This document shows, piece by piece, positions 5,114-25,656 of a stretch of DNA of 37,039 bases (its first letter is position 1; every line of letters begins with the position of its first letter). The stretch covers positions 1 to 37,039 of the forward strand of contig JACPNH010000026.1 in assembly GCA_016185565.1 (NCBI GenBank), in the 5' to 3' direction. This DNA is from Candidatus Woesearchaeota archaeon. GTDB lineage: Archaea > Nanobdellota > Nanobdellia > SCGC-AAA011-G17 > JAGVZF01. A program made the position numbers and the translations under genes. The notes beneath the pieces are model-generated. The model made no database searches. It worked only from the letters and a program-made list of their open reading frames with translations, and was not told the DNA's origin.

Positions 5114-5114
5114 A
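5077..5114. repeat. Perfect 19-bp tandem duplication (ttatcaagcatattatgaa x2)
   Basis: 5077-5095 identical to 5096-5114; 19 is not divisible by 3, so it shifts frame. Confidence 0.97.
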
Positions 5115-5696
5115 GAAGCCCACAGTAAATATCCAGAAGTCACAATAAACTTGATTAAAGCTACTACGATGAAGGAATCTGCAGGCATTAGAACTAGAAT
5201 AAGCCAGGATGGTGCTCGCGGTTTATTGCAATTAATGCCTTGTACTGCAAAAGAACTAAACAGCAGAAAAGACAACTTATTTGTTTTGCAAAGAGTAAAA
5301 TGTTTGCAATGCAGAGATGGGACTACTAACTGCAATCCATGTGAAAGATACGGCAATTGTGTAAAGGCCGGCCCTGGAGCCGGATATGATCACAGTTTAG
5401 ATGCCAGAACAAATATACTTGCTGGCACTAAATACTTAAAACAAAAACTAAATGATTGTTCTGCACTGCCAAATTATGTAAAAGGACAAGAAATAACTGA
5501 TGAAGAAATAATAAAATGCGCACTCGCTTCCTATAACGCAGGACATGGAAAGGTCATAAAGGCTGCAGTCAGTGCAGATAGCACCTCATTTGCTGATTAC
5601 AAAATTAAATTTAAGCCTACTGTAAGCAAAGAAGTAGTTCCTTATGTCACTATAGTTCTTGGTTATTATAAATGGCTTGAAGAAAATAATGTATAA
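5091..5696 (+). CDS. SLT-type lytic transglycosylase domain with Cys-rich insert (C-terminal part of frame-split gene)
   Basis: 'INLIKATTMKESAGIRTRISQDGARGLLQLMPCTAKEL...CALASYNAGHGKV' SLT motifs; no signal peptide of its own. Confidence 0.8.
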   Translation: MNYQAYYEEAHSKYPEVTINLIKATTMKESAGIRTRISQDGARGLLQLMPCTAKELNSRKDNLFVLQRVKCLQCRDGTTNCNPCERYGNCVKAGPGAGYDHSLDARTNILAGTKYLKQKLNDCSALPNYVKGQEITDEEIIKCALASYNAGHGKVIKAAVSADSTSFADYKIKFKPTVSKEVVPYVTIVLGYYKWLEENNV

Positions 5697-5738: not shown

Positions 5739-5822
5739 GCGGAGGTAGCGAAGTGGACAAACGCGGCAGCCTCAAGAGCTGTTCCCTTAGTGGGTTCACA
5801 GGTTCGAATCCTGTCCTCCGCA
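5739..5822 (+). tRNA. tRNA-Leu (anticodon CAA)
   Basis: GCGGAGG/CCTCCGC acceptor stem, anticodon loop CTCAAGA on GCAGC/GCTGT stem, long type II variable arm, GGTTCGAATCC T-arm, no encoded CCA. Confidence 0.95.
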
Positions 5823-5890
5823 CTTTCTTTATACCATTACATAATTATCAAAAACACAAAATTTAAATACTTTGTAATGGTAATAGTTTT

Positions 5891-6754
5891 ATGAGAATAA
5901 TAAAGAAAAAGAAGGGAAAAAATACCTATTTCTATTTACAACACTCTATCAGAAAAGGTAATAAAGTTATAACAAGAGAGAAATATCTTGGAACGACTAT
6001 TCCTAAAGATTTAGAAATTATCAAGAAAGAGCTAGAAAAAGAATATAAAAAAGATTTGTATAAAAAACTGGAAAAAATAAGGGAAAACTTCCAAGAAGAA
6101 TGGAAGAAATATCCTAAAACTGTTCAAGAAAAAGAGAAAGAAGAGATTGCAATTGCATTTATATATAATACTAATGCAATAGAGGGTTCTACTATAACTT
6201 TAGAAGAAACAAGAGATATTACGAAAGAAGGTATAGCTCCTAACAAACCTTTAAGGGATATAAAGGAAACTGAAAATCATTATAAAATTTTCTTAAATAT
6301 GTTAAATGAAAAAGAAGTGATATCCAACAGCTTATTATTAAAATGGCACATGGAAATTTTCGGAAGTACAAAGAGTGATATAGCTGGAAAATATAGAGAC
6401 TATTCAGTTAGAGTAGGAAATTATAGGGCTCCAGATTGGCAAGATGTAGAAAAATTGATGAACCAATTTGTTAAATTTCTGAAAGAGTCTAAAATAAACT
6501 CTGTAGAGCTAGCTGCTAGGGCTCATTACAAATTCGAAAGGATTCATCCTTTTGGAGATGGTAATGGAAGGATAGGTAGGCTAATAATAAATCATATTCT
6601 ATGGTGGAATGGTTGTCCTATGATTATTATAGAATACCAAAGGAGAATATCATATTACAAAGCTTTAAACAAAGATGAAGAAGGTTTTGTCAAGTATTTC
6701 TTAAGAAGATATTTAGCAATTCATAAGAGAAGGATTAATTCTAGAATAAATTAA
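5891..6754 (+). CDS. Fic-family protein (putative AMPylase/NMPylase) with N-terminal inhibitory motif
   Basis: 'HPFGDGNGRIGR' Fic motif; 'TNAIEG' fits the (S/T)xxxE(G/N) autoinhibitory motif. Confidence 0.93.
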   Translation: MRIIKKKKGKNTYFYLQHSIRKGNKVITREKYLGTTIPKDLEIIKKELEKEYKKDLYKKLEKIRENFQEEWKKYPKTVQEKEKEEIAIAFIYNTNAIEGSTITLEETRDITKEGIAPNKPLRDIKETENHYKIFLNMLNEKEVISNSLLLKWHMEIFGSTKSDIAGKYRDYSVRVGNYRAPDWQDVEKLMNQFVKFLKESKINSVELAARAHYKFERIHPFGDGNGRIGRLIINHILWWNGCPMIIIEYQRRISYYKALNKDEEGFVKYFLRRYLAIHKRRINSRIN

Positions 6755-6770
6755 GAAAGACCAGGTAATT

Positions 6771-6799
6771 TTCGAACCTGTATATGCATGTCCTCCGCA
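6771..6799 (+). repeat. Degenerate copy of the tRNA-Leu 3' end (candidate att scar)
   Basis: 'ttcgaacctgt...tgtcctccgca' versus tRNA 'ttcgaatcctgtcctccgca'; perfect 11-bp direct repeat tgtcctccgca at 5812-5822 and 6789-6799. Confidence 0.75.
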
Positions 6800-6863
6800 T
6801 AAGTATTCTAAAAATATCTACAGATAGAAATATTTATATAGTACCTTATGTTAATATGTACAT

Positions 6864-7115
6864 ATGTCACTAAGACTGGAATTAAACGATACGGAAAAAA
6901 AATTTAGAGAGGCTGCAATGAAAAAGTACGGATATTCAAAAGGAGCCTTAAAGAAAGCGAGTATAGAAGCCTTAAATAGATGGGCCAATGAACAAAAAGA
7001 GATTCCGGTATCCGACAATCCTTTTGGTTTAATAGAAGGCATTTTAAAAGACTACAAAGGGAAAAAAAATTCTGTAGAGTGGCAACATTCAGCAAAAAAA
7101 TTATGGGTGAGATAG
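6864..7115 (+). CDS. VapB-like antitoxin
   Basis: 'EKKFREAAMKKYGYSKGALKKASIEALNRWANEQK' resembles archaeal VapB; directly abuts a PIN ORF. Confidence 0.75.
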   Translation: MSLRLELNDTEKKFREAAMKKYGYSKGALKKASIEALNRWANEQKEIPVSDNPFGLIEGILKDYKGKKNSVEWQHSAKKLWVR

Positions 7116-7508
7116 TTGTTCATTGATACAAATATCTTCTTAGAGATCTTTCTTAAAGATAAAAATTATGTAAAATGCGAGGAATTTATACGAAGATTAA
7201 CAAACAAAAAAATTTCTTTCTACACTTCAGATTTTATAATTTTTTCTTGTTTATTGATTATTAAAAATAAATTAAAGTCCACCACACATATGAAAGGTTT
7301 TCTTATTTTTATTAATAGTATAAAAATTGAAATAATAAGACCGAGTCTAAAAGAAATGTACGGAGCCATAGAGTTTATGAAAAAATATAGATTAGATTTT
7401 GACGATGCCCTTATTATTAGTTGTATGGTGGAAAATAATATAAAATCCATAATATCTTATGATAAACATTTTATCAAAGTAAAAGAAATTGATGTTGTTG
7501 AGCCATAA
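7116..7508 (+). CDS. PIN-domain ribonuclease, VapC-like toxin
   Basis: 'MFIDTNIFLEIFL' N-term acidic motif, 'LDFDDALIISCMVENNIKSIISYDKHF' C-term PIN motif; TTG start immediately after antitoxin stop. Confidence 0.85.
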   Translation: MFIDTNIFLEIFLKDKNYVKCEEFIRRLTNKKISFYTSDFIIFSCLLIIKNKLKSTTHMKGFLIFINSIKIEIIRPSLKEMYGAIEFMKKYRLDFDDALIISCMVENNIKSIISYDKHFIKVKEIDVVEP

Positions 7509-7546
7509 TGTTGAATCCTTACCTTCATACTTTAATATAACACAAT

Positions 7547-7717
7547 TTATTTATTCGGTTTCATCCAGCTGTAATGCCTTAATCTGCTGGAAGCACCAAA
7601 ACCGCAACTGCTGCATACCTTTTGCTTCATATGATAACTTCTATTCCCACATCTTCTGCACCTTATATGATTGCTGCCTTTATTATGCTTGCCTCTAGAA
7701 GCAGTACCCTTGGTCAT
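7547..7717 (-). CDS. rpl37e: 50S ribosomal protein eL37 (56 aa; not in supplied ORF track)
   Basis: Hand translation of minus strand: [56 protein letters not shown]; CxxC...CxxC zinc ribbon; adjacent to LSm as in other archaea. Confidence 0.97.
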
Positions 7718-7718
7718 T

Positions 7719-7943
7719 TTATTCTAAGCTTATTAAAACTATTGTGTCTCCTCTTATGAAAACACTACCTACTTTTCTTTTTATCTCGCCATTAATACGT
7801 TCTTCAGCATCATCCACAACACAATTAATATGAATATCAAATGCCCTTAACTTGCCAACATATTGTTTTCCGTTCTTTAATTCTATAATGACCCTTTTAT
7901 TTCTTGCCTCATTTAAGGCGTCTAACGGCCTTGACGCTTCCAT
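7719..7943 (-). CDS. LSm/Sm-like archaeal protein (SmAP)
   Basis: '[44 protein letters not shown]...[12 protein letters not shown]' Sm1/Sm2 motifs. Confidence 0.96.
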
Positions 7944-8070
7944 TCTTTTAACCCCCTACAAAAGGAATGCTAAAGGCTTAATTATTACATTTATAAGCTT
8001 TTGCTTTTGAATTCTGTAACAGAAATGTAGCAACATAAAAATTATATTGTAATATTTAAAAAAATTACTT

Positions 8071-8229
8071 ATGGAAGTTATTGAATTAACCAATATTAGC
8101 AAGAAATACAGGGACAAATATGAAGAAAAATCAGAGCTAAAGAAAGTCCACTATCCGATTAGATTTTTTAAAAGGTTTCACTCTGCGTCTTCTATATTAC
8201 AGCCATTTGTTGCAATAACGGGTTTTTGA
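8071..8229 (+). pseudogene. Possible relic or short ORF resembling an ABC transporter ATPase N-terminus
   Basis: 52-aa ORF MEVIELTNISKKYRDKYEEKSELKKVHY...; first ~15 aa look like an ABC ATPase start, stops before any Walker A. Confidence 0.25.
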
Positions 8230-8492
8230 ATTATTACAAAAAAGAGAAATATAAACATTACCCCAAATAATCTTAGCGCTATAATAACATACCCCCGTGC
8301 TTTTTTAAAGAGTTAATATAATAAAAAAACAAGTTTATAACAATTTTTATGCCAGAATATATTATACCAGAATATATATTTATTTTACTTGCTAGTTAAG
8401 TTTAAAAAATATTCGATTTAAGGACTTGGTAAACAAAGCCTAAGCAATCACTAATAACAAAATTTATAAATGATTAATTTTCTAGCATAAAC

Positions 8493-8876
8493 ATGGCAAT
8501 ATCTCAATTCAGATCAAAGAGAAAAATCTCTGGTGGAAGATACAAAGATTTCAGGAAAAAAAGCCTGAAAGACTTAGGCAGAGATCCTACACTCACAAAA
8601 ATAGGTCAAACTAGAAAAACAGAATTTAGAATAAAAGCTGGCCATCATAAAAGAGTGCTATTGAATTGCAATATTGCAAATGTCTACGATCCTAAGGAAA
8701 AGAAATACAAAAAGGCAAAGATAGAAACTGTAATTGACAATCCTGCTAACAGAAACTATATAAGAAGAAATATTCTTACTAAAGGCACTATAATAAAGAC
8801 CGAATTTGGAAATGCAAAAATAACTAATAGACCTGGTCAAGAAGCGCATGTAAATGCAATTCTCATACCGTCCTAA
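8493..8876 (+). CDS. rps8e: 30S ribosomal protein eS8
   Basis: 'MAISQFRSKRKISGGRYKDFRKK...NPANRNYIRRNILTKGTIIKTEFGNAKITNRPGQEAHVNAIL'. Confidence 0.97.
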   Translation: MAISQFRSKRKISGGRYKDFRKKSLKDLGRDPTLTKIGQTRKTEFRIKAGHHKRVLLNCNIANVYDPKEKKYKKAKIETVIDNPANRNYIRRNILTKGTIIKTEFGNAKITNRPGQEAHVNAILIPS

Positions 8877-9041
8877 AAACCTTATTTTTAAATAATTATT
8901 ACCATTTAGTTAATACAAATATTTATATAGTGATAATTTTGTAAAATTTTATAAAAGAATTTAAAAAATATATAGTTTTATCGTTGAGTGACAAAAATCA
9001 TTCAACCATTTTTGATTATGATTATATTTGGGGGGCAAAAA

Positions 9042-9965
9042 ATGAAAGGTTACATAAAAAAGTGTCCCGAATGTGGCAGCATCAATCTACTTCTTAATAA
9101 AGAGAAGGGTGAAGTTATTTGCAAGGACTGTGGATTAGTAGTAGAAGAAAAAATGATTGACTTCAGCCATGAATGGCGTGAATTCGATCATGAGCAGAGT
9201 GCTAAAAGAAGACGTGCAGGAGCTCCTATGAGCTATACTCGGTATGATCGCGGTCTTGGAACTTCTGTAGGACAAAAGGCTGATGTCTATCAGCTCGATA
9301 CCAAAGAACGTTCAAAATTCTTCAGGTTAAGAAAATGGCAGTACAGAATATCAACAGCAATTGAAAGAAATCTTAAACTTGCTTTAGCTGAATTAAAAAG
9401 AGTAAGCTCTTATTTAAAACTTCCAAAAAGTGTTGAAGAAGAATCAGCTAGAATTTACACAATGGCTGTTCAAAGAGGTTTAGTTCGTGGAAGATCTATG
9501 GAAAGCGTAGTAGCAGGCGCCTTATATGCTGCCTGTAGAAGACATGAAGTTCCTAGAACTTTAGATGAATTAAGCGAGGCTTCTGGCATTGACAAAAAAG
9601 AAATAGGCCGTACATATAGATTTATCACAAGAGAACTAGGAATCAGAATACTCCCAAGTAACCCAGTAGACTATATCCCAAGATTTGCTTCAGCATTAAA
9701 ATTAAGTCCTGAAACTCAGAGCAAAGCCGTCGAGATTCTTGAACAAGCCCAAGAAGCAGAATTAACTTCAGGAAGAGGTCCTACAGGAATTGCAGCCGCT
9801 TCTTTATATGTAGCAGCCCTTGCAAATAACGAAAAGAGAACCCAAAGAGAAGTAGCAGATGTTGCAGGTGTAACAGAAGTCACTATAAGGAACAGATATA
9901 AAGAACTTTTAAAGGAATTAAAGCTTAAAGAGCAAATAAAAAAGAAAAACAAGAAGGAAATTTAA
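9042..9965 (+). CDS. tfb: Transcription initiation factor IIB (TFB)
   Basis: Zn ribbon CPECGS..CKDCGLV, two cyclin repeats; ATG at 9042 preceded by ggggggc is a better start than 8988. Confidence 0.97.
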   Translation: MKGYIKKCPECGSINLLLNKEKGEVICKDCGLVVEEKMIDFSHEWREFDHEQSAKRRRAGAPMSYTRYDRGLGTSVGQKADVYQLDTKERSKFFRLRKWQYRISTAIERNLKLALAELKRVSSYLKLPKSVEEESARIYTMAVQRGLVRGRSMESVVAGALYAACRRHEVPRTLDELSEASGIDKKEIGRTYRFITRELGIRILPSNPVDYIPRFASALKLSPETQSKAVEILEQAQEAELTSGRGPTGIAAASLYVAALANNEKRTQREVADVAGVTEVTIRNRYKELLKELKLKEQIKKKNKKEI

Positions 9966-10342: not shown

Positions 10343-11269
10343 ATGGATGATGAAATCTTATTTCTATATGATGAACTGGCAAGTGAACGTGAAAAATTAA
10401 TAAAAGAATTAATTCATGAGCTTAACAAGAAACCATTTAAGCACTTTAAAGAAGCAAGATTTCTGAAAAATTATATAACGGCCTTAGTCTTGGCTTCAAA
10501 AAAACAATCTTTTACTTTTAAACATATTCCAATCTCTGAAATAGAACAACCAATTCAACAAAAAACATCTATACAGCCCAGATTACAGTCCAGATTAGAA
10601 ATTCCTAAAAAAGAGTTTAAACCTATGCAAAAACCTATGCAAATTGCCCACAAAAAACCAATCTCTGTACCAGTCTCTGTAGCAAAATACTCTAAAATTG
10701 ATCTCCCAGAGCCACCCAAACCCAGCTTTTATCAAGAGACTATTATTAGACAATCGCCCAATGCCATAATTGAGAATTATATTTATAAAGTTCCACAAGA
10801 ATCTCTAGATCCTTCAAGCACAAAAGTACTGGAAACGCTTGAAACAAGAATAGACACTCAAGAAAAATTAAAAAACTTTGAAAACATATTTAAAAAGACC
10901 GTCTCGACATTAAATATAAAAGATAAACAAGTAGCCAAAGAAAAAATAAAGGAATTTCTCTACAATAATCTCCTAGGATTCGGGAAGATTAACATTTTAT
11001 TAAGAGATCCAAATGTTAAAGAAATACACTGCAATGGTCTCAATATACCATTAACAATAATCCATTCCCAATATGGAGGTATTAAAACTGATTTGGTATT
11101 GACAGATCATTTTGAATTAAATCGTTTAATAACAAATATAGCAAAAATGGCAGGTTTCCTTATTGATGAAAACAACCCTATTGCTGAAGGAACTTTAAGT
11201 TCTGGAGAGCATTTTAAATTAACCCTCGGCACCCACATATCGAATGCCAGTTTCTCTATCCATAGATAA
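10343..11269 (+). CDS. Stand-alone N-terminal domain of a type II/IV secretion (GspE/FlaI-like) ATPase, lacking the ATPase domain
   Basis: 'LLGFGKINILLRDPNVKEIHCNG...ISNASFSIHR*' aligns to the N2 domain of the 33860-35356 ATPase and stops before the Walker A region. Confidence 0.75.
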   Translation: MDDEILFLYDELASEREKLIKELIHELNKKPFKHFKEARFLKNYITALVLASKKQSFTFKHIPISEIEQPIQQKTSIQPRLQSRLEIPKKEFKPMQKPMQIAHKKPISVPVSVAKYSKIDLPEPPKPSFYQETIIRQSPNAIIENYIYKVPQESLDPSSTKVLETLETRIDTQEKLKNFENIFKKTVSTLNIKDKQVAKEKIKEFLYNNLLGFGKINILLRDPNVKEIHCNGLNIPLTIIHSQYGGIKTDLVLTDHFELNRLITNIAKMAGFLIDENNPIAEGTLSSGEHFKLTLGTHISNASFSIHR

Positions 11270-11422
11270 TTTTTAACATTTTGTAAAAATTGAAGGTAAA
11301 ATGTTTTAACATTCTAAAAATTTTGATAATTTTTAACATAATAGAAAAATTTAAGACCAAATTTATTAATATATTGTAAATTCTGTGATAAAGTTTAAAT
11401 ACCAAATTGAGTTTTTATCTCC

Positions 11423-11965
11423 ATGCTTAGCGCATTTTTAAAAAGATTATTGTTCACAAGGCAATTCTTCATAATAAACGGAAAAGTAGAAGTTCTTAAT
11501 GTTCAATTAGTTATGCTGCCTCCTGATGTTATTTTTGAGATTCAAAACCTCGATGAAAAAAAGAGCTATGATATAGGAAAGAAGATTGCCCATGATAACA
11601 TGAGATTATTTGCTAAAAAACTAGGCACTTCCAGCGAAGGCATTTTAAAAGACATACAAGACATTTATGAGACATTTGGCTTGGGGGCCATGCAAATTGC
11701 TGATCTTGACCAAAGCAAAAAAAGAGCTATAATAAGAATTAAAGACAGTCCTACAGCGAATTTATATCTTGAAAAAAACAAGAAAAAAAGTTCTAAAGCA
11801 ATATGTATCTTTATTTCAGCGTTCTTAGCTGGAACATTTTCCTTTCTGTTCAATACAAGTGTCGACTCTGTAGAAAAAAACTGCTTGGCTCAAGGAAAAG
11901 ACTATTGCGAGTTTATTATTCAGTCAAAACAGTCAAAAAAAATTGAAAAAATTAAAAAAGCTTAA
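11423..11965 (+). CDS. V4R (4-vinyl reductase-like) small-molecule-binding domain protein
   Basis: C-term 'NCLAQGKDYCEFII' Cys motif and overall V4R-like layout. Confidence 0.7.
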   Translation: MLSAFLKRLLFTRQFFIINGKVEVLNVQLVMLPPDVIFEIQNLDEKKSYDIGKKIAHDNMRLFAKKLGTSSEGILKDIQDIYETFGLGAMQIADLDQSKKRAIIRIKDSPTANLYLEKNKKKSSKAICIFISAFLAGTFSFLFNTSVDSVEKNCLAQGKDYCEFIIQSKQSKKIEKIKKA

Positions 11966-13334
11966 ATATAAGAACCAACTTAAATCAATGGTGAAAAAAT
12001 CTAGAAAGATCTCAAATAAAAAGACAAAGCACATCTATGTAGGGGTGGGTTCTAGTAAAAACAAAGATGGTTATCAGGCAGCATTAGAGGCTACAAAACA
12101 AGCTTTAACGGAATGTAAAACAACTAAACCTACTTTTTCTTTTGTATTTGTAGATTCAAGATATGATGGCTATAAGGTATTAAATGGGATAAACAAAGTT
12201 CTAGGCAACAACAGCTGGGTTGGATGTAGTACTGATAGGCAGCTTAATAATAAAATTGTTTACACAGATGATCCAGTTATAACTGTGGTTTGTATTAATA
12301 CAAATTTCATGTATTTCGGGATGGGGGCAGTAGAAAATTACAGAAAGGATTCTTTTAACAAAGGTATAAAAGCAGTTAAGGAAGCCATATCTAAAGTAAG
12401 GGTAGATCAATACATTTCTCCTTACATTCAATTTAGAAGGGCACAAATAAAAGATTATAGCGATATTGTAAAAACACCACCATATTTTATACTAACTTTT
12501 ATGTCTGGAACTTACTTTGATGATAAGAAGCAAGTAGTAATGGGCAAAGAAACGGAATTTATTGAGGGTGTGTTAAGTGTTACTGGCGCCAATATCCCAG
12601 TATTTGGCTCGGTAAGTAATAGTGATTTTGGAAGGTTTATGAAAGATGCTGTTGCAAAAAATTGGCAATATGCAAACGGGAAAATGATTAAGGATGGTGG
12701 TATAGTTGTTTTTGTAGTTTCTAGTCTATACTTCTCTCACGCGCTAGAACATGGTTATAGAGAAACCGATGTTGTTGCTATGATTACAAAAGTCGATCCT
12801 TCAGGGCATATAGTCCAAGAGATTAATGGAAAACCATCAGTAGACGAATATTGCAGATTAGTTGGTATAAATAAAGTAGATTTCTTAAAAGATCCATATA
12901 AGTATACACTCTCAAAATCATTGGCCGTTATAGACTCTGGAGGCCAAAATTATATCAAGGCTATGGGCACTACACCAGATGGAAAGTATCTATTTTCACA
13001 GGCAAAGTTACCACCAAAGGTAGCAGTTACACTAGTTAATTATGATAAGGGCCAAGTCATAGATGCAGCAGTAGACGCCATCAACAATGCGAATAAAGCA
13101 GTAGGAAAAAAGGACGTAGCGTTTGTATGGATTTCTAGTTGTAGTGCCAGAAGAGCTATGTTGGGTGAAGACACTAAGGAAGAAGCTAAAGCAATATTAA
13201 AGAACTTCAAAAATATTCCATTCTTCGGATTTTACACATTTGGCGAAATTGGTAGTAATAAAGCTAGAACTTGCCAACTTAACGAACAAACAATTACTTT
13301 ATTAACAGTTTATGATAAATTGCTAACAGAGTAA
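11943..13334 (+). CDS. FIST-domain sensory protein (FIST_N + FIST_C); real start may be 11988
   Basis: 'HIYVGVGSSKNKDGYQAALEATKQAL...WVGCSTD', C-term 'FFGFYTFGEIG' typical of FIST_C. Confidence 0.82.
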   Translation: MKKLKKLKYKNQLKSMVKKSRKISNKKTKHIYVGVGSSKNKDGYQAALEATKQALTECKTTKPTFSFVFVDSRYDGYKVLNGINKVLGNNSWVGCSTDRQLNNKIVYTDDPVITVVCINTNFMYFGMGAVENYRKDSFNKGIKAVKEAISKVRVDQYISPYIQFRRAQIKDYSDIVKTPPYFILTFMSGTYFDDKKQVVMGKETEFIEGVLSVTGANIPVFGSVSNSDFGRFMKDAVAKNWQYANGKMIKDGGIVVFVVSSLYFSHALEHGYRETDVVAMITKVDPSGHIVQEINGKPSVDEYCRLVGINKVDFLKDPYKYTLSKSLAVIDSGGQNYIKAMGTTPDGKYLFSQAKLPPKVAVTLVNYDKGQVIDAAVDAINNANKAVGKKDVAFVWISSCSARRAMLGEDTKEEAKAILKNFKNIPFFGFYTFGEIGSNKARTCQLNEQTITLLTVYDKLLTE

Positions 13335-13368
13335 GTTTTTTAAATTCTCTTTTCTGATAGGTTATAAA

Positions 13369-14502
13369 ATGGAATTAAAGGACTTTAAAGTTAAATTTGG
13401 CAATATAGCAGTAGCAGTAGCTAATAAAGAACTTGACTATATGGAAAAAAAAGAAAGACAAGAATTAATGAATTCATTATTTTCAGCATACATAAATGAT
13501 ACATATGAGAAATCTACTTTCTTTAGAAACTATCTAAAAAAGAAAAAAATTGACCCAAAAAGAATATCAAAGCCAGAAGACTTAAAAGACATATTCCTAG
13601 GAAAGAATACCCTGGCTGTTATAAGTGCTGATGATTTATTACCTGATGGATATATACAAAGTTTTGATAATGGACTAGAAAATAAATCTTATCAGTTACG
13701 TATAGGAAAAACATTTTCTAGTTCTGGATCTACTGGGAGAGTAGCAGAAGTTTATTACACTAAAGAAGATTGGGATAACTCTATGGCTGTAATAATAAGA
13801 TGCATGCATCATATTCCATTAAAAGAATGGAGCCGAATTTTTAATGGATTCCATCAAGGGCATGTAGCAGGGAAAGTTTTTGAGGATGCTTTCAACAGAG
13901 CAGGAGCTTTAGTAAAAAATAGACATTTTACTAGTAAAGAAGACACTGATTCTATAAAACAAATTATTCTAAACAAATCAAATGCTCTTGCGTTACCAGC
14001 TGATACAGGCAAGGTAAGTAAAGGTGGTGACTTAAAAACACTGCTGTCTGTGGATAACGAAAATATAATCGGCAAACAAATAAAAGTAATAATCACAACT
14101 GGGGGCCCAAGACCCAGCTACTTAATTGATCAGGTTCATAAAAGAAATGAATTAGCAAGAGTTGATTTTAAAACTAAATTTGTTGATTTTGCAGGTTGTG
14201 CGGAAGTCCTGCCAACTGTTGCTGAATGTGAATACAATAATGGATTGCATTTAATTCCAGGAATCACTTACACTGAAGTTATAAATCCAAAAACCATGAA
14301 ACATGTTAAAAACAATGAACGCGGCTTATTAATTTATACCGGTTTTAAATATGGCAGTAGATTTATTAGGTATATCGTGGGTGATGAAGCTACTTATGTC
14401 GAAGAGCCTTGTAGATGTGGTAGAACCACCCCCAAAATAAAGGATATCCAAAGAGTAATTGACATTCAAAGATTTGAAGAAGGCTGTGGAGTCTGGAAGT
14501 GA
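13369..14502 (+). CDS. LuxE-like acyl-protein synthetase / adenylate-forming enzyme
   Basis: 'FSSSGSTGRVAEVYYTKEDWDNSM' nucleotide-binding loop, 'FVDFAGCAEVLPTVAECEYNNGLHLIPGITYTEV', C-term 'CRCGRTTPKIKDIQR'. Confidence 0.75.
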   Translation: MELKDFKVKFGNIAVAVANKELDYMEKKERQELMNSLFSAYINDTYEKSTFFRNYLKKKKIDPKRISKPEDLKDIFLGKNTLAVISADDLLPDGYIQSFDNGLENKSYQLRIGKTFSSSGSTGRVAEVYYTKEDWDNSMAVIIRCMHHIPLKEWSRIFNGFHQGHVAGKVFEDAFNRAGALVKNRHFTSKEDTDSIKQIILNKSNALALPADTGKVSKGGDLKTLLSVDNENIIGKQIKVIITTGGPRPSYLIDQVHKRNELARVDFKTKFVDFAGCAEVLPTVAECEYNNGLHLIPGITYTEVINPKTMKHVKNNERGLLIYTGFKYGSRFIRYIVGDEATYVEEPCRCGRTTPKIKDIQRVIDIQRFEEGCGVWK

Positions 14503-15923
14503 AAGAATATAGTGTCAAAAATCTAATTTTAGGTGAATTCAAAGATAGTTATAGTAAAGAAAGAATTTTTGTAGAAGATATTTTAGGCAAGAAAAGCATC
14601 ATCTCAATGCCTAATTCTATAGAAGCAGATTTAGCAGATGCTTTTTTAGCTACAAAACAAGCAGAAAACAAATTTAATGAATTACCGATAAAAGAATTAA
14701 TAAACATCATCAAAAAAGTAGGAAAAAATTATTTGAATGATGAAGAAAAAATCAAGCTGATTTCTTTAACCACCGGAAGTCCTATAAGCTATGTAAAATC
14801 TTCTCTTAATTCAATTAAAGAGTGGATGATTAATATAGATAAATTTATAGAAACTGTTTTTGGGTCTATAGACAATTTAGAAAATGGACTTCCAGTTAAA
14901 ATTGAAAATAAAGAAATAAGCAAAATCTTTTATAAACCTGGCGGTATTATTTCAATAGTTTTAGCTGGAGATGAGGTAGCTTTATCAACCTATGTAATAA
15001 CACAATCACTTCTATCAAGAAATCCAACCGTAGTTAAGCCTAGCACTATCGAGTTAATTTCTTGCAATGAATTAATACAAGAATTTGCAAAAAATGGATT
15101 AAAGGATTTTATACAATTAGTATGTTGGAATGCCCAATTAAGACCGGAATTAATAAAAGAATTAATAAAAAACGGAAAGCAAGTTGTTTTATTTGGAAAT
15201 GATAACACTGTAAACAATTTCATTTACGAAAAAGATGCAAATGGGGCTGTAATAAATGATTTTTCCCAAAGTAGAAAAATAATAAAATTCACTAGTGGTA
15301 GGAGCGCAGCCATAGTAATGGAAGACTGTGATTTAAAATTAGCAGTCGATGAAATTTTATATGGAGCTACAATGAACCGTGGCATTGAATGTATAAACAC
15401 AAAAAAAGTCTATCTCCATGAAAAAATTTACGAAGAGTTTATAAAATTATTAAAACTAAATGCGAAAAATTTAAAGCTTGGAAAACCACTCGACAATAAA
15501 ACTGCTATAAGTCATATTGACAAAAACAATTTAAAAAAAATAAAATCTCTTTGTAATGAAGCTCAAGTTATTTTTAGTAGTTTTAATAAAGATTTTATGG
15601 GTTTGTTGGCTATAGAAGATAATTCCAATAATTCCAGATTTGTAAAAGAAGAAATTCCTGGCCCCGTAATTGCAATAATAAAAATAAGCAGCATAGATGA
15701 TGCAATAAAAAAAGCAAATCTAGCCTTAAATAATACTAGCTTTGCTACCACCACATCACTTTTCACAAAAAACAATAACTACATTAAAAAATCGGCAATA
15801 AATCTAAAAACTTATAAATTAAACATAAATAAATCAAGCACTTTCATGGATTTTTTTGTAATGCACGATGGCAAATATTTAGTCAAGGAATTGCTAGATG
15901 AAAAGGTTTTAAGCAATTATTGA
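14499..15923 (+). CDS. Aldehyde-dehydrogenase-superfamily acyl reductase (LuxC/CoA-acylating ALDH-like)
   Basis: 'YKPGGIISIVLAGDEVALSTYVITQSLLSRNPTVVKPS', 'SGRSAAIVMEDCDLKLAVDEILYGATMNRGIECINTKKVYLH' with catalytic-Cys region; GTG start overlaps previous stop. Confidence 0.78.
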   Translation: MKEYSVKNLILGEFKDSYSKERIFVEDILGKKSIISMPNSIEADLADAFLATKQAENKFNELPIKELINIIKKVGKNYLNDEEKIKLISLTTGSPISYVKSSLNSIKEWMINIDKFIETVFGSIDNLENGLPVKIENKEISKIFYKPGGIISIVLAGDEVALSTYVITQSLLSRNPTVVKPSTIELISCNELIQEFAKNGLKDFIQLVCWNAQLRPELIKELIKNGKQVVLFGNDNTVNNFIYEKDANGAVINDFSQSRKIIKFTSGRSAAIVMEDCDLKLAVDEILYGATMNRGIECINTKKVYLHEKIYEEFIKLLKLNAKNLKLGKPLDNKTAISHIDKNNLKKIKSLCNEAQVIFSSFNKDFMGLLAIEDNSNNSRFVKEEIPGPVIAIIKISSIDDAIKKANLALNNTSFATTTSLFTKNNNYIKKSAINLKTYKLNINKSSTFMDFFVMHDGKYLVKELLDEKVLSNY

Positions 15924-15971
15924 ATAGATAGAATAGATAGATTTATATACCACTTTTAAGTAAATAAAAAT

Positions 15972-17750
15972 ATGAAGCAGTTTAAACGGCCTTATAAGCT
16001 TTATAATATACTAAAAAGAAAATCGCGTGAAGAAGCGCATGATTTAGTAGTTTTTGGAGCCGGGGCTCTTGGAAATGTAATAGCGAGGTACCAATTTCTT
16101 ACTGGTAAAAGTATTGGGTTGTATAGTAGAAGAAGTTGGGCAGATGCTGTCGGAGAAAAAGGTGTTGAATTTGTAAGGGGGGGTTCTAGCGGTGAAATTT
16201 TAGAAAGAGATAGGCTAAGGCAGAGTGAAAGATTTACGTTTTATAGTGATGATACTCAAGACCAATTAAGAAATAGAGGTTTAAAACCAAATGGGCTTGT
16301 CGTTCTTGCATCAAAAACTCCAAACTTAGAAGAAATTTTACAGGCTGCCGAAGCAGTAATAGATCCAAAACGTAATCAATATATTTTGATGATCCAGAAT
16401 GGTATATGCCCCGAAGTTGGAGTTGAAGAAATTTTAAAAAGGAAATATGACGATCCAAGAAGAAAAAATAATGGGGTTAGCGATAGATTAGTTGGTGGAG
16501 TTGTCATGGCTAGAATGGCAATCAGCGACTATAAAAATCCCACTATAAATTATGGAATAGCAGAAATAACGCTTGGGTCTTGGAATAACTTTGAGTCAAA
16601 AAAAGACAGCATGATAGAAATAAATGACTCCTTATCAAGATCTCTAATAGGTGTGGCAACAGTTGGGATAGCCACCGATCAAATGTCTTACAGAAAAGTA
16701 AGAATGGAGAAAGCCGCAAAAAATGGAGCTAATTCTGTGAGTGCATTATTCAATGCCAAGGTCGGAGAGATTTTGGATAATCCTGTTCTGAATCAAACAA
16801 TGAGACATAAACTGGAAGAGGCAGTAGCTGTTGCTAGAGCCTTAGACATCCCAATAGATTCCGACGAGCTTATGAAGAGCACAAGGTTAGATTATGATAA
16901 AAAAGTAAGAAGCCATTTTGCATCGATGGCACAGGACTTGCAACTCGCTGCTAGAACTCCTGGAAGAATGTTAGTGACCGAGATAGATCATTTAGATCTG
17001 GCTTTTTACAGAATGGGTAGCCCTCATGGTGTTTCTACTCCCATGTACCTCTTTTATGGCGGTTTAATGGAAGATTTTACATGTGCTTATAATACGTTAA
17101 AAGCTGTTGACTCTAGAAACGGCAGTAATAAAGCTAAAGAATTTGCTAATGAATTTTTAAGAACAAACAGATCCTTAGCAGGTTTAGAAGGAACTTCTTC
17201 AAGAATAAGCCCAGAATCACTTGCAGATAAAGTTTATGAGAGTCTGCAAGAATTAAAGTCTATACATCTTAAAGATTGTAAAAAAGATGTTGGTTATCGA
17301 TACACTTTAGAGCCCAGAGTTGAAAAGCCGACATTACATATTTTAGTAGTAGACGATGAAAAAGATAATGCTAACATAACAGCCGAAAGAGTAAAAGAAA
17401 GGTTAAGCAAGAAAACCGAAATAACCGAAAGATATAAAGTAGAAGTTTTGACTGCTTACAGTGCTTTGCAGGCTGTTGAAGTCAGCGCCGGGAAGAATAA
17501 CATCGGTATTGTTGTTGCAGATGTCGTTATGCCAGAACAAAGAGGTTATGAGATGGCTGAAAGATTTCCTATAACAACTCAGTTTATATACTATTCAGGT
17601 CAAGCTTCATTAGATGATAAAATGAAAATCAGAAGGAGACCAGGATCTCCTGAGATATTAATGAAACCCTTTGAATATGGAATAGAAGATCTTATAGATG
17701 CTATCACATTCAGAATTGAAAAATATGAGCAGCAAACAACTATGTTTTAA
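15972..17750 (+). CDS. Ketopantoate-reductase-like (PanE/ApbA) NADP-binding enzyme fused to a C-terminal response-regulator REC domain
   Basis: N-term 'LVVFGAGALGNVIARYQFLTGKSIGLYSRR'; C-term 'LHILVVDDEKDN...IVVADVVMPEQRGYEMAE...YYSGQAS...LMKPFEYG' with the acidic pair, phospho-Asp, Ser and Lys of REC. Confidence 0.85.
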   Translation: MKQFKRPYKLYNILKRKSREEAHDLVVFGAGALGNVIARYQFLTGKSIGLYSRRSWADAVGEKGVEFVRGGSSGEILERDRLRQSERFTFYSDDTQDQLRNRGLKPNGLVVLASKTPNLEEILQAAEAVIDPKRNQYILMIQNGICPEVGVEEILKRKYDDPRRKNNGVSDRLVGGVVMARMAISDYKNPTINYGIAEITLGSWNNFESKKDSMIEINDSLSRSLIGVATVGIATDQMSYRKVRMEKAAKNGANSVSALFNAKVGEILDNPVLNQTMRHKLEEAVAVARALDIPIDSDELMKSTRLDYDKKVRSHFASMAQDLQLAARTPGRMLVTEIDHLDLAFYRMGSPHGVSTPMYLFYGGLMEDFTCAYNTLKAVDSRNGSNKAKEFANEFLRTNRSLAGLEGTSSRISPESLADKVYESLQELKSIHLKDCKKDVGYRYTLEPRVEKPTLHILVVDDEKDNANITAERVKERLSKKTEITERYKVEVLTAYSALQAVEVSAGKNNIGIVVADVVMPEQRGYEMAERFPITTQFIYYSGQASLDDKMKIRRRPGSPEILMKPFEYGIEDLIDAITFRIEKYEQQTTMF

Positions 17751-17751
17751 A

Positions 17752-19218
17752 TCATAATGGAATTTCTATAGTAAATTCAGTGCCTTCTCCGTATACACTT
17801 TTTACTTTTATCTCTCCTTCATGTTCTCGGATGTAATTTCTACATATACTTAACCCTAGACCTCTGCTTCCCCTACCAACTTCTTCTCTTGTAGAGAAGC
17901 TAGGCTCGAAAATTCTTTCTAGACATTCTGGTCTTATTCCGATTCCATTGTCTCCCACAGAACTATATATTACTCGATCCATTATACGTGTGGTTAGCAT
18001 AATTTCTGGATTATAGTCAGTATCACCAATAAGAGCTCTTTTTCTTTCAATGGCTTCTACACTATTCTCTATTAAATTAGTATAGATTTGATTCAGATAC
18101 CAAGGCACCATCTCTATTCTTGGCAAATTGGAATCGAGTTCAGTCCTCACAGTTATTTTTTTATCTCTGAGATCTGGACCTAGAACGTTAAGCGTTATTT
18201 CTATGCATTCATTGAGATTACCGTCGACTCTTTCTATGCTACCTTCTCTTGCATAATCCCTTAGACCCCTAGCCATCCTGTGCATTGCCCTGGCCTTGAT
18301 TACTATATTTTCAAGAAAATTTAAAAGCTTCTCAGTAGGCATTGTGCCTTCTTTTATAGATTCTTGTACGTGTTGAGCAGTTTCTATTTGACTATACACC
18401 ATGTTACTCACATCGTGTGCAACTCCTCTGGCAAATTTCCCTATCACTCTTAGGTTCTCTGTGCTAACTAATTGTGCTTGTGCTAGTCTGCGCTCTTCTT
18501 CAGAAGCTGCCACCACGATTGAAATGTAAGCTCCATAATTAATCATAAGTTGGGCTATATTAACTTTATAGTCTGATATGGCCTCGCGAGCCTGTATTTC
18601 TTTTGGCTCATCAAAATTAAAATAACCCGCAGATTCTTGCTTACCATTAAATGGAAGTATGATAGGAAATATCGCAAATCTAAACCAGTCAGAAAAGCCC
18701 ATTGCTTTTTCTCCATACTCCTGAGTTCTAGCAATATATTCATTATATTGCAACTTGCTCCAATCATAATAATTTTGCTTTACAACACCTTTTGACTCTA
18801 ATTCTCTGATAAAATCTTCATTATCATAACATTGAACCGCCGATTTAGTTCTTAAGGCGTATAAATAAGGTCGTATATCTGTTAGATCCATATTTTTTTG
18901 TTTTTCTCTCATCTTGCTATTTTTAATTTCATTCTCTGCATCCGCATCCGATAATCCAACATGAGTAACAAAATCCAAGAATAATTTTTCTTCTTTATAT
19001 GATGATGCCGGCTTTACTCTTTTATGTTCGTCCCTCACTAAGACTATCTCTCCTCTCCCAAAACCCAAAAAATCTGCAGTTTGTTTTAATATCTCATTTA
19101 ATGATTTATCTAAAGAAAATTCATCAAGGTTAATTGCAGTAGTTCCTACCAATAATCTTGGTGTTAGTTCTATTATTGATTTATAGTCTTTTACTAGCTG
19201 TTCAAGATCATTTTCCAT
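17752..19218 (-). CDS. Sensor histidine kinase (N-terminal GAF-like sensor)
   Basis: H-box 'FARGVAHDVSNMVYSQIE'; N-box 'NQIYTNLIENSVEAI'; 'VGDNGIGIRPECLERIFEPSFSTREEVGRGSRGLGLSICRNYI' HATPase. Confidence 0.93.
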   Translation of the reverse strand: MENDLEQLVKDYKSIIELTPRLLVGTTAINLDEFSLDKSLNEILKQTADFLGFGRGEIVLVRDEHKRVKPASSYKEEKLFLDFVTHVGLSDADAENEIKNSKMREKQKNMDLTDIRPYLYALRTKSAVQCYDNEDFIRELESKGVVKQNYYDWSKLQYNEYIARTQEYGEKAMGFSDWFRFAIFPIILPFNGKQESAGYFNFDEPKEIQAREAISDYKVNIAQLMINYGAYISIVVAASEEERRLAQAQLVSTENLRVIGKFARGVAHDVSNMVYSQIETAQHVQESIKEGTMPTEKLLNFLENIVIKARAMHRMARGLRDYAREGSIERVDGNLNECIEITLNVLGPDLRDKKITVRTELDSNLPRIEMVPWYLNQIYTNLIENSVEAIERKRALIGDTDYNPEIMLTTRIMDRVIYSSVGDNGIGIRPECLERIFEPSFSTREEVGRGSRGLGLSICRNYIREHEGEIKVKSVYGEGTEFTIEIPL

Positions 19219-19454: not shown

Positions 19455-20873
19455 TTATTCGGGCGTGTATAATTCTTCTCTTGCTAGTCTATCTAATCTT
19501 CTTACTAAATAAGTTAAAAATAATCCAAATAATACTGCAAGAATCGAAATCATTAAATAAAATGTTGAAAATTTATTTAAGAAAATAAATGTTGTTAATA
19601 TTAATGCAAAAACAATCAAGTAACTAGAGCTTATTAAAGAAAATAAAGCCAAATAATAAAGCCTGGGTCTTAAATACAATCTGTGATGCCTTATTAATCC
19701 ATACACCAACAAAGCAAAATGTATCAAGAAGAACACTACAAATATCATTGCATCATAAAATATAGCATAATTTTCCCCCGTAATGCCTTCATAAATATTG
19801 TTTAATGCCTGGAGTATTAAATCTAAAGTTATAGGGAGATAATAAAAGAAAAAATTAAACAACAAAACTATAAATCCAACTAAAAATAATATCGTATAAA
19901 AATGAACTATATTTTTTTCCCTGTTATCTTCAAAATGTGTGCTATGATGGTTCTTATTAAATAATTTAAAAAATTCATTTTTAATAAACAGATCAGTCTT
20001 TTCATTTAAATTATATACTTTAACTAAATTTTCAAATGCATAATAAACATCTGTTCTCAAGAAAAATAAGAACTGCCAAAGTATTCCTAAAAATTCGCTT
20101 AATGTAACAAACCTTAATAGCTTGTAAAAAAAGCTTGAAATATGTATAAAATTTGAATCACTCAAAAACATAAGTATTATAGCTAAAGAAAAAATTGTAA
20201 TATCTGCAAAAATTCCAGCCAAGATAATTCTAAATCTTTTTTCCCTTTTTAATGCATAAATATTTGTTATATCTGAAGTTGCAACTAAATAAAATAATCT
20301 ATTACTAATACCAAATTCGGCAGGCAGCTTGTATGATTTCGCTGCTAGAAAATGCATTAACTCATGAAATCCAACTAAAATCCAAGAAACTATAAAAACT
20401 ACTGGCACTAAAATTAAAAATCTGGCAGATAAGAAATAATGATTTATTCTAGGGAAATAGCTTGTGTTAAAAACTAATATCAAGAATGCCATTAAAAATA
20501 TTAATGAATATATAAAATACATTTTCCTAAAAAAAATCCATTTTACATATTTGGGGTCAATAAATTTCAGAATGGGTTTTATTTTTTTTATTTTTTCTTT
20601 TAATATCTTTTTATCTATTTTTTCTACATAACCCTGCATCATTAAGTAATTAATAAACCTGTCAACATTAAACAAGCCATATTTTTTCTTAATTATGTTT
20701 TTAACCTCTCCAATTTTATACTCCTTCTCTAACAGTCTTATTATTTCATACCCAACTTCTGAAGTAGAAATATAGATTTCAGTATTTTTTCTTCCACATA
20801 TATAGTAGTTGTCCTCCTTTCTTTTCACTAGGCTGTAAAGTTTAATCTTGCTATTATTACTAAAAAGATACAT
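19455..20873 (-). CDS. Polytopic membrane M50-like metalloprotease with N-terminal PqqD/RRE-like domain
   Basis: 'GFHELMHFLAAKSYKLPAEFGI' HExxH in a TM region; N-term 'YYICGRKNTEIYISTSEVGYEIIRLLEKEYKIGEVKNIIKKKYGLFNVDRFINYLMMQGYVE' PqqD-like. Confidence 0.7.
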   Translation of the reverse strand: MYLFSNNSKIKLYSLVKRKEDNYYICGRKNTEIYISTSEVGYEIIRLLEKEYKIGEVKNIIKKKYGLFNVDRFINYLMMQGYVEKIDKKILKEKIKKIKPILKFIDPKYVKWIFFRKMYFIYSLIFLMAFLILVFNTSYFPRINHYFLSARFLILVPVVFIVSWILVGFHELMHFLAAKSYKLPAEFGISNRLFYLVATSDITNIYALKREKRFRIILAGIFADITIFSLAIILMFLSDSNFIHISSFFYKLLRFVTLSEFLGILWQFLFFLRTDVYYAFENLVKVYNLNEKTDLFIKNEFFKLFNKNHHSTHFEDNREKNIVHFYTILFLVGFIVLLFNFFFYYLPITLDLILQALNNIYEGITGENYAIFYDAMIFVVFFLIHFALLVYGLIRHHRLYLRPRLYYLALFSLISSSYLIVFALILTTFIFLNKFSTFYLMISILAVLFGLFLTYLVRRLDRLAREELYTPE

Positions 20874-23619: not shown

Positions 23620-24186
23620 ATGGAATCTGAAATAATTACATTTTCATTAATTGTATTGGTTTTGAGTATTGGAATATTCTTTTTTGTGGAAAATGCTCAA
23701 CAAAATCTTTCATTTGTAGGAAAAAAATTCTTTTCTGGAGAAATCTGGCGCATAGTAACTTTTAATTTTGTGCATTTGAGCCTAAGCCATTTAATAGGCA
23801 ATGTAATCGCTTTCATTATTACCACCATGCTTTCATTTGAAGTAGGCTTAAAGAGCGAATACTTTATCATGCTGTTTTTTGTTTCTGCAACTTCAATAGC
23901 ATTAATCGAAGGAATATTTTTTCCTGGCTTAATAATTGCAGGCGCATCTTTAGGAATATACTCAATATTGGGAGGAATTTCGATTTCAGGCAGGCGGCTA
24001 ATACCATTATATTTTTTCCTTCCGTTAATTGTACTTTCGATATTCCTAAACAAATTCTTCCTAGATACAGTAACATTTTTTGAAATCATATTCCATTTTT
24101 TTGGATTTTTGTCAGGATTATTGCTGTATTATGGAATTGTAAAGTATATAAATAAGAAAAAATCCTATTTAGAGGTGGTTGAATAA
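23620..24186 (+). CDS. Rhomboid-family intramembrane protease
   Basis: 'GEIWRIVTFNFVHLSLSHLIGNVIAF', catalytic 'GASLGIYSI', 'HFFGFLSGLLLYY'. Confidence 0.85.
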   Translation: MESEIITFSLIVLVLSIGIFFFVENAQQNLSFVGKKFFSGEIWRIVTFNFVHLSLSHLIGNVIAFIITTMLSFEVGLKSEYFIMLFFVSATSIALIEGIFFPGLIIAGASLGIYSILGGISISGRRLIPLYFFLPLIVLSIFLNKFFLDTVTFFEIIFHFFGFLSGLLLYYGIVKYINKKKSYLEVVE

Positions 24187-24935
24187 TGATAGAAAGAATA
24201 AAAAGCGGTGTGCCTGGACTTGACAGGCTATTGGATGGAGGAATTCCTAAAGGCAAGGTAATCATGGTTTCTGGTCCTAGTGGATCTGGAAAAACTATAT
24301 TAGCAGCCCAATTCGTTAACGAAGGCATAAAGAATAACGAAAATTGCGTGTTTATTACTTTAGAAGCAGGCAAGCAAAAATTAATAGAAGATCTTCAGCA
24401 AATAGGCATAGACTTTAGCCAATTAGAAAGAAAAAATAAACTAAGAATTATTGGCGGTCCTGTCGGCCATGTAAAATATTTCAAAGAAAAAACTAAAGCT
24501 ACCATCTATGACATAGCAGACGAAGTAAAGGAAGTAGTTCTTGAAGTTAGTGCAAAGCGAGTAGTTCTTGACTCTATAAACCTATTCACAATGCTATTTG
24601 AAAATGACTTGGAAAGAAGAAAGGCCCTTGCAGATTTAGTTGCAGTACTCAGTAGCTTAAATTGCACCACCCTGCTTACATGCGAAGTAAAAGAAGGCAG
24701 TCCAAGGTCTATTAGCTGGCATGGATTTGAAGAATTTGTAGTTGATGGAGTCATAGTGCTTTATAGGCTGCCTTTTGGCAATAAGTATGAAAGAGCAATA
24801 TCTGTAGTAAAAATGCGTGGCGTAAATCATAGCCAAAAAGTGGTTAGCATGGCCATTACAAAAAGAGGTATTGAAGTTTACTATGACAGGGAGCCATACC
24901 ACGATATCATAAAGAACAATCATAATGGAGGCTAA
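24186..24935 (+). CDS. KaiC-like RecA-superfamily ATPase (copy 1)
   Basis: Walker A GPSGSGKT, Walker B VVLDSIN, 'SGVPGLDRLLDGGIPKG'. Confidence 0.92.
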   Translation: MIERIKSGVPGLDRLLDGGIPKGKVIMVSGPSGSGKTILAAQFVNEGIKNNENCVFITLEAGKQKLIEDLQQIGIDFSQLERKNKLRIIGGPVGHVKYFKEKTKATIYDIADEVKEVVLEVSAKRVVLDSINLFTMLFENDLERRKALADLVAVLSSLNCTTLLTCEVKEGSPRSISWHGFEEFVVDGVIVLYRLPFGNKYERAISVVKMRGVNHSQKVVSMAITKRGIEVYYDREPYHDIIKNNHNGG

Positions 24936-24936
24936 A

Positions 24937-25656
24937 ATGAGAAATGAAAGAGTCCCTACTGGCATTCCAGGTTTTGATAAACTAATAGGGGGGGGATTTT
25001 TAAAAAACAGTATCAATTTATTAGCAGGAGGCACAGGTTCGGGAAAAAGTATTTTCGGCTTACAATTTTTGTATAATGGCATCACAAAATACAACGAGTC
25101 AGGATTGTATATTAGTTTTGAAGAGTCTATAGAATCCCTAAAACAGGATGCTGAGATTTTTGGCTGGGATTTTGAAAAGTTTGAAAAAAATAAAAAAGTA
25201 ACATTTTTGTATCTAACACCGTATACTACAACAGACTTGCAGGCATTGCTGGCAGAAGAAATTCCAAAAGCAAAAGCAAAAAGAGTTGTCATTGATTCAA
25301 TCTCAGTTTTTGCAATGGCACTTAATGATTTATACAGGATAAGAAAACAAATCTATTTCTTAACAAGTTCTCTGCAAAAAATAGGCGCAACATCTATTCT
25401 GACTTCAGAGATAGTGGGCGAGGCCCCAATTGACATATCTGGGGGCGGCAGAGACGGAAGCTTTTCGAGATATGGCGTTGAAGAATTTATAGCAGATTCT
25501 GTGGTAACATTCCATAACGCAGGCCTTGGCGGCAGTGGAGACAGGGCAGTAAGAATATTAAAAGTTCGTCGCACTGATCATATTAAAGGACCTGTTCCTT
25601 TTGAGATAGGAAATCAGGGAATTAAGGTATTCCAAAAGGAAAGAAGTTATAAATGA
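24937..25656 (+). CDS. KaiC-like RecA-superfamily ATPase (copy 2)
   Basis: Walker A GGTGSGKS, Walker B VVIDSIS; start 24937 preferred (GGAGG SD) over 24925. Confidence 0.92.
   Translation: MRNERVPTGIPGFDKLIGGGFLKNSINLLAGGTGSGKSIFGLQFLYNGITKYNESGLYISFEESIESLKQDAEIFGWDFEKFEKNKKVTFLYLTPYTTTDLQALLAEEIPKAKAKRVVIDSISVFAMALNDLYRIRKQIYFLTSSLQKIGATSILTSEIVGEAPIDISGGGRDGSFSRYGVEEFIADSVVTFHNAGLGGSGDRAVRILKVRRTDHIKGPVPFEIGNQGIKVFQKERSYK

Follow-up and report, generated by a model that had tools for sequence, protein, structure and literature searches.

The window analysed here is a 37,039-nucleotide stretch (contig JACPNH010000026.1) of the Candidatus Woesearchaeota archaeon assembly GCA_016185565.1, contig 10 of a 0.8-Mb genome that is 84% complete. 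It carries a cassette of genes specifying a V4R protein, a FIST protein, an adenylating ligase of the ANL superfamily and an aldehyde dehydrogenase (ALDH)/LuxC-like reductase, which is kept, in most cases with its gene order intact, by about 15 distinct genomes of DPANN archaea (Woesearchaeota, Pacearchaeota and Aenigmatarchaeota). Its sequence points to a modular sensing and acid-reduction cassette of DPANN archaea, in which an acid reductase of the LuxE/LuxC type would make an aldehyde that is sensed by FIST and perhaps by V4R; we consider this reading plausible, if not quite probable. No description of the V4R-FIST-ligase-ALDH combination was found in the open-access literature, in agreement with the original prediction for this DNA, and for this reason the system is regarded as new, though its parts belong to known families. 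As judged from the gene neighbourhoods, the novelty lies in FIST being constantly accompanied by a predicted acid-to-aldehyde enzyme pair and not in the Cys/Glu residues of FIST; the chemistry would be a variation on LuxE/LuxC.

Composition and conservation of the cassette

The six open reading frames (ORFs) of the original prediction are all present, as are the 34-bp gap between the FIST and ligase genes and the GTGA overlap of the ligase and ALDH genes. The overlap of the V4R and FIST genes holds with a TTG start at 11943; an ATG at 11988 agrees better with the homologues, and with it the two genes are separated by a small gap. The genes had been listed correctly, but the cassette reaches past 19218 to a fifth conserved gene, here called P5. 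Domain searches recovered V4R, FIST_N/FIST_C, Aldedh/LuxC, ApbA/ApbA_C and HATPase_c, gave a borderline receiver (REC) domain, and failed with Pfam LuxE and HisKA.

A total of 371 genomes of the phylum were searched with the ligase and with the FIST protein, and the neighbourhoods (given below by their L numbers) were then read. FIST-ligase-ALDH, mostly with V4R ahead, occurs in the same order in many of these genomes. The full V4R-FIST-ANL-ALDH order is identical in L075, L087, L093, L094, L096, L098, L099 and L100, and recurs with a true LuxE and/or LuxC in L091 and L095; such recurrence throughout the phylum is more than chance would give. Because the genes are co-conserved in related genomes, the lack of co-conservation that the original prediction had named as the chief argument against itself was not found. 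When 84,980 species were scanned with the conserved N-terminal block of V4R (MLSxFLKKLLFxRQF), 16 loci were found, all from DPANN or unassigned archaea and most of them carrying the cassette; the marker was not found in viral contigs.

The proteins differ in their degree of conservation, the median identity across cassettes being 53% for P5, the best conserved, 37% for V4R, 28% for FIST, 20% for the ligase and 16% for ALDH. L095 and L096 are close in V4R (70% identity) and P5 (82%) but not in the ligase (21%) or ALDH (19%), so the two appear to have a common chassis fitted with different enzyme cartridges. At the level of sequence, V4R and P5, the sensor part, are conserved, and the enzyme pair and the REC-fused enzyme described below are swapped between lineages.

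The enzyme pair

The ligase (13369–14502, forward strand; 377 amino acids) is a PaaK-like adenylating protein of the ANL superfamily without a C-terminal lid domain, ending in EEGCGVWK. Its relatives by sequence are PaaK-type, and its predicted fold matches PaaK structures (template modelling (TM) score 0.64–0.72; mean predicted local distance difference test (pLDDT) score 70). Neither this protein nor the rest of the genome gave a match to Pfam LuxE (PF04443), and membership of that family was rejected; what stands of the earlier label "LuxE-like" is the lid-less adenylation domain with its invariant C-terminal Cys. Single-protein patterns found no close relatives in GTDB contigs.

This residue, Cys373 in the window (codon 14485–14487), has a counterpart 2–19 residues from the C-terminus in 14/14 distinct cassette ligases examined, all of which stop soon after the adenylation domain. 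The contexts elsewhere include KSCAGEF, VGCRYD, DSCSMPEQ, SCALDALAL and GGCSM, and apart from glycines the Cys is almost the sole invariant residue. The stand-alone PaaK-like ligases of the phylum, by contrast, possess a full C-terminal domain, and 13/14 lack a near-terminal Cys (1/14 against 14/14; Fisher 7e-7). A profile of the ligases (A2) matches LuxE (7xc6) over nearly its full length (2e-9). In luminous bacteria the acyl carrier of LuxE is the C-terminal Cys364 and that of LuxC is Cys286 in YDQQACFSTQ (PMC8301110). By analogy, we infer that the window ligase is a LuxE-like acyl carrier through Cys373.

The reductase (14499–15923, forward strand) matches both Pfam Aldedh (2.3e-43, 148.9 bits) and, at a lower score, LuxC (PF05893; 2.5e-15, 56.7 bits against a cut-off of 21). 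Cys298 (codon 15390–15392) is kept and is invariant in the cassette ALDHs, from which the general-base Glu is missing, EMGGK being replaced here by FTSGR. Loss of this Glu is expected where an ALDH-type enzyme has to spare its acyl intermediate from hydrolysis. With both domains above cut-off, the Cys retained and the Glu lost, the ALDH/LuxC-like assignment of the original prediction is upheld, and the LuxE/LuxC logic gains from the terminal Cys of the ligases and from the occupants of the same slots in sister cassettes. In L095 these are recognised by Pfam as LuxE (1.3e-37) and LuxC (1.1e-35; motif YNRNACFSPQ), and L091 resembles it very closely (91% identity in the ligase; LuxC 9e-34).

The window pair thus resembles LuxE-LuxC of luminous bacteria in placing a lid-less adenylating protein with a putative acyl-accepting Cys near the C-terminus beside an ALDH-fold reductase with one catalytic Cys, and genuine LuxE and/or LuxC occupy the cassette slots in L091 and L095. 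It differs in that the ligase is PaaK-type and fails Pfam LuxE, the reductase scores higher as an ALDH, LuxD and LuxAB are absent, and the genes are archaeal and linked to V4R, FIST and P5.

Flux could also run in the opposite direction, ALDH oxidising a toxic or imported aldehyde to an acyl-enzyme whose acyl group would be taken over by the ligase Cys or by CoA, with FIST and V4R inducing the operon in response to the aldehyde. NAD(P)-aldehyde dehydrogenases are indeed nearer to the reductase than LuxC is, and FIST would be able to sense an aldehyde in either direction. We nevertheless hold such scavenging to be unlikely: the missing general base argues against hydrolytic oxidation, true LuxE/LuxC proteins stand in the same slots, and scavenging has no need of a dedicated ATP-using ligase.

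The FIST protein

The FIST_N-FIST_C protein (11943–13334, forward strand; likely start ATG 11988 rather than TTG 11943) matches Pfam FIST_N (7.6e-24) and FIST_C (1.7e-15), both above cut-off. Two of its residues, Cys400 (codon 13140–13142) and Glu435 (codon 13245–13247), are invariant. The FIST profile matches the human F-box protein FBXO22 (E-value 0.0024), the alignment pairing C400 with C326 and E435 with E362. In FBXO22, alkyl aldehydes and benzaldehydes bond covalently to C326, and the E362A substitution eliminates function/activity (PMC11208438, PMC13316043). The likeness is confined to these corresponding residues, since FBXO22 is a eukaryotic ubiquitin-ligase subunit whose aldehyde ligands are so far drugs.

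The bacterial NosP-NosK-NosR system also contains a FIST protein, and in the cassettes of two-component type a histidine kinase and a REC protein lie nearby. Most cassettes, however, lack a kinase, the cassette REC is fused to a metabolic enzyme, and NosP is described as a heme-bound nitric oxide (NO) sensor. The cassette FIST is below the NCBIfam NosP equivalog cut-off (67.5 vs 450 bits). Elsewhere in the phylum, three DPANN genomes (L081, L083 and L084) have a FIST gene directly followed by one for a histidine kinase, an arrangement like that of NosP-NosK.

The V4R protein

The V4R protein (11423–11965, forward strand), a stand-alone ligand-binding domain of 180 amino acids, matches Pfam V4R at 38.8 bits (cut-off 31; E-value 1e-9). 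In a Foldseek search its AlphaFold2 model (pLDDT 82) came closest to the MopR, DmpR and PoxR phenol sensor domains (TM 0.71 to MopR, 5kbh), followed by MJ1460 and TRAPP Bet3. Family and fold both bear out the V4R assignment made earlier. The cassette protein differs from the phenol sensors in standing alone, without AAA+ or helix-turn-helix output, and in that the cysteines of the C-terminal part are not conserved.

TRAPP Bet3, a distant relative of V4R, is palmitoylated, and serves as the model for a reading in which the ligase Cys hands its acyl group to V4R, FIST or P5 and ALDH strips it off reductively. The predicted acyl-carrier Cys of the ligase and the match of the V4R model to Bet3 would suit such protein acylation. 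We find it very improbable, however, given that the V4R Cys residues vary between cassettes and that the phenol sensors match the model better than Bet3 does.

V4R occurs in other arrangements as well. In L036, L037, L038 and L039 it directly adjoins a full-length PaaK-like ligase, FIST and ALDH both being absent, which gives the phylum a second way of pairing V4R with a ligase, and L073 has two V4R genes in a single locus (5821–8942) with a KaiC-like gene between them.

The fifth protein and KaiC-like ATPases

P5 (20977–21435, forward strand), a conserved protein of 152 amino acids, belongs to no named family; fold and family searches gave coiled-coil matches only. It is 45–63% identical to 15 homologues adjoining ALDH or V4R. 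A P5 of about 152 residues directly follows ALDH in L075, L076, L091, L093, L095, L096 (with one small ORF between), L098, L099 and L100, and lies beside V4R in L034, L073, L089, L090 and L092. FIST (15 genomes) and P5 (16) share 12 of the 371 genomes (hypergeometric P 7e-17). FIST occurs without P5 in three genomes, in at least two of which the cassette is cut by the contig end (L086, L094). P5 was not found in phages or plasmids. The cassette thereby reveals a conserved, nameless protein family.

Downstream lie genes for a rhomboid-like protein (23620–24186) and two KaiC-like ATPases (24186–24935 and 24925–25656), all on the forward strand. The same trio is found downstream of the cassette in L093 and L099. 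KaiC-like genes are near the cassette in 10/13 genomes, mostly within 5 kb and in one case at about 6 kb, with 3–9 KaiC matches per genome; a rough binomial P for this proximity is 1e-10 if the chance in each genome is taken to be 0.06.

The two-component proteins

The gene after ALDH (15972–17750, forward strand) specifies a ketopantoate-reductase (KPR)-type dehydrogenase with a C-terminal REC domain (KPR::REC). It contains Pfam ApbA and ApbA_C domains, and its SM.QD and TEID motifs align with 2ew2. The score is below the TIGR00745 (2-dehydropantoate 2-reductase) cut-off (80.3 vs 141 bits), and from its domains the enzyme part is a KPR-type dehydrogenase rather than a confirmed 2-dehydropantoate 2-reductase. 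The REC domain is borderline: with a cut-off of 30.2 bits, it fell short in the protein scan (27.9 bits) and passed in the genome scan (30.5 bits). Its expected residues are in place: the DD pair, Asp517 (the predicted phospho-acceptor; codon at 17520), Ser542 and Lys565. Convergent with this gene is that of a soluble histidine kinase (17752–19218, reverse strand; HATPase_c 2e-20), in which the HisKA model is unmatched and an H-box, GVAHDV with His268, is present.

Neither a second REC nor a second histidine kinase was found in this genome (84% complete), its other two HATPase proteins reading as GyrB and topoisomerase VI B. As the sole pair, with the H-box and HATPase_c on one side and the conserved Asp and Lys on the other, they agree with the two-component pair proposed at the outset. 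Their inclusion in the system needs qualification: an enzyme::REC fusion with a kinase accompanies the cassette in some relatives, but such proteins are outside the core and are missing from most cassettes.

KPR::REC and the kinase could, then, be an unrelated insertion beside the cassette. In keeping with this, KPR::REC itself was not found with any other cassette examined, most cassettes have neither gene, and relatives of P0005 lack cassette linkage. This was our initial view, and was dropped because the slot after ALDH holds a lactate/malate dehydrogenase (LDH/MDH)::REC in L034 and a ketoacyl synthase III (KAS-III)::REC in L073, each with a kinase nearby, that of L073 being convergent with the fusion as in the window; an insertion now seems improbable. 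In L070 an LDH-like protein encoded two genes beyond the ligase has at its end a probable REC, recognised by motif only, and a kinase is nearby. An additional segment behind the first helix and [ST]-G instead of [ST]-A are common to the clear fused RECs, and the catalytic residues of the KPR, LDH and KAS-III parts are intact by eye.

Genome G179 parallels that of the window: its single REC is that of KAS-III::REC, with an adjacent kinase, and its two other ATPases are of GyrB/Top6B size, an identity judged by size. A single operon slot thus accepts different enzyme::REC fusions, which in some genomes form part of the sole two-component system. Since the core cassette is also present in genomes G153 and G202, which lack REC domains altogether, the two-component proteins are probably an optional output, the KaiC-like ATPases being candidates where they are absent. 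A census of archaeal two-component systems lists enzyme-REC fusions (KaiC-REC, glycosyltransferase-REC; PMC5847659), which are similar in having REC on a metabolic enzyme and a narrow phyletic range. KPR, LDH/MDH and KAS-III fusions are not listed there, and here various enzymes fill one operon slot.

Proposed mechanism

Gene linkage and order, conservation, the key residues, the exchanges in the slots and the sole two-component pair are read directly from the sequences. The chemical steps, direction of flux, sensing and output that we infer would be as follows. The lid-less PaaK-type ligase would turn a carboxylic acid, probably aromatic or otherwise hydrophobic, into acyl-AMP and load the acyl group onto its own C-terminal Cys in the manner of LuxE. 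The group would then pass to Cys298 of the ALDH/LuxC-like partner, in which the hydrolysing Glu is missing, and be reduced with NAD(P)H to the aldehyde. FIST may capture the aldehyde as a hemithioacetal on Cys400 beside Glu435, as the FBXO22 residues bind aldehydes, and V4R may bind the acid, aldehyde or alcohol in a pocket of the phenol-sensor type. In the last and weakest step, the state would be passed on through the roughly 152-residue P5 as a hub and, according to lineage, to a KaiC-like ATPase or to the kinase with a receiver fused to a metabolic enzyme, here of KPR type.

A more specific form of this proposal, that the LuxE/LuxC-type pair makes an aldehyde messenger which FIST reads through a reversible hemithioacetal on Cys/Glu, the sensor part being kept and the enzymes swapped, is rather doubtful. 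If true, it would describe a signalling system so far unknown in archaea, with aldehyde as a general FIST ligand. The ligands of FIST domains are for the most part unsettled, and DPANN archaea have hardly been explored for two-component systems and small-molecule signalling. If the broader reading is correct, the cassette would be the first case in nature of FIST being paired with an enzyme that makes an aldehyde, and the idea that FIST senses aldehydes could be put to the test.

Several observations weigh against the aldehyde-sensing cassette. The alignments of the ligases and ALDHs are uncertain owing to their great divergence, and the cassettes of L073 and L076 have no recognised ligase. 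Of the seven non-cassette FISTs examined from the phylum, all have the Cys and the six that are complete in this part have the Glu, so that aldehyde reactivity would be a trait of the FIST family and not proof of a role here; moreover, bacterial NosP uses FIST with heme as an NO sensor. The KaiC link rests on position only, and the REC of L070 is weak. Finally, no conserved aldehyde consumer or biosynthetic gene was found downstream in the cassette neighbourhoods compared.

The want of a conserved biosynthetic gene bears equally on a further reading, biosynthesis without signalling, in which V4R and FIST would serve an acid-reductase complex as binding or carrier subunits, the complex supplying aldehyde or alcohol for lipids or surface glycans. 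LuxE/LuxC pairs outside bioluminescence do serve biosynthesis, and the core cassette is found in genomes without any REC (G153 and G202). Against it stand the sensor-like fold of V4R and the subset of cassettes with a kinase and enzyme::REC, and we hold it, like scavenging, to be unlikely.

Upstream elements and neighbouring genes

Just 5' of the V4R start, an archaeal B recognition element (BRE)/TATA-like element, AAAGTTTAAATACC (11390–11405, forward strand), was recognised by eye. Ahead of it, directly upstream of the cassette, are two 60-bp imperfect direct repeats (73%; 11265–11384, forward strand), which are possible regulatory sites. A bacterial promoter scan scored below the shuffled background and is no guide in an archaeal host.

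Between the kinase and P5 lies the gene of an M50-type membrane metalloprotease (19455–20873, reverse strand), an optional accessory. A homologue (E-value 1e-74) is found in the neighbourhood of L073, which also carries enzyme::REC and a kinase. Elsewhere in the window are a TFIIB gene (8988–9965) and, downstream, class III signal peptides and a pilus-type ATPase, which mark the DNA as archaeal. A 308-residue ORF at 10343–11269 (forward strand) partially matches archaellum/pilus ATPases (FlaI/BasE) and appears to be a truncated secretion ATPase. Unusually for an archaeon, a large ORF of 1481 residues at 4–4449 has an SLT transglycosylase domain close to its end, and another ORF with an SLT domain follows at 5091–5696.

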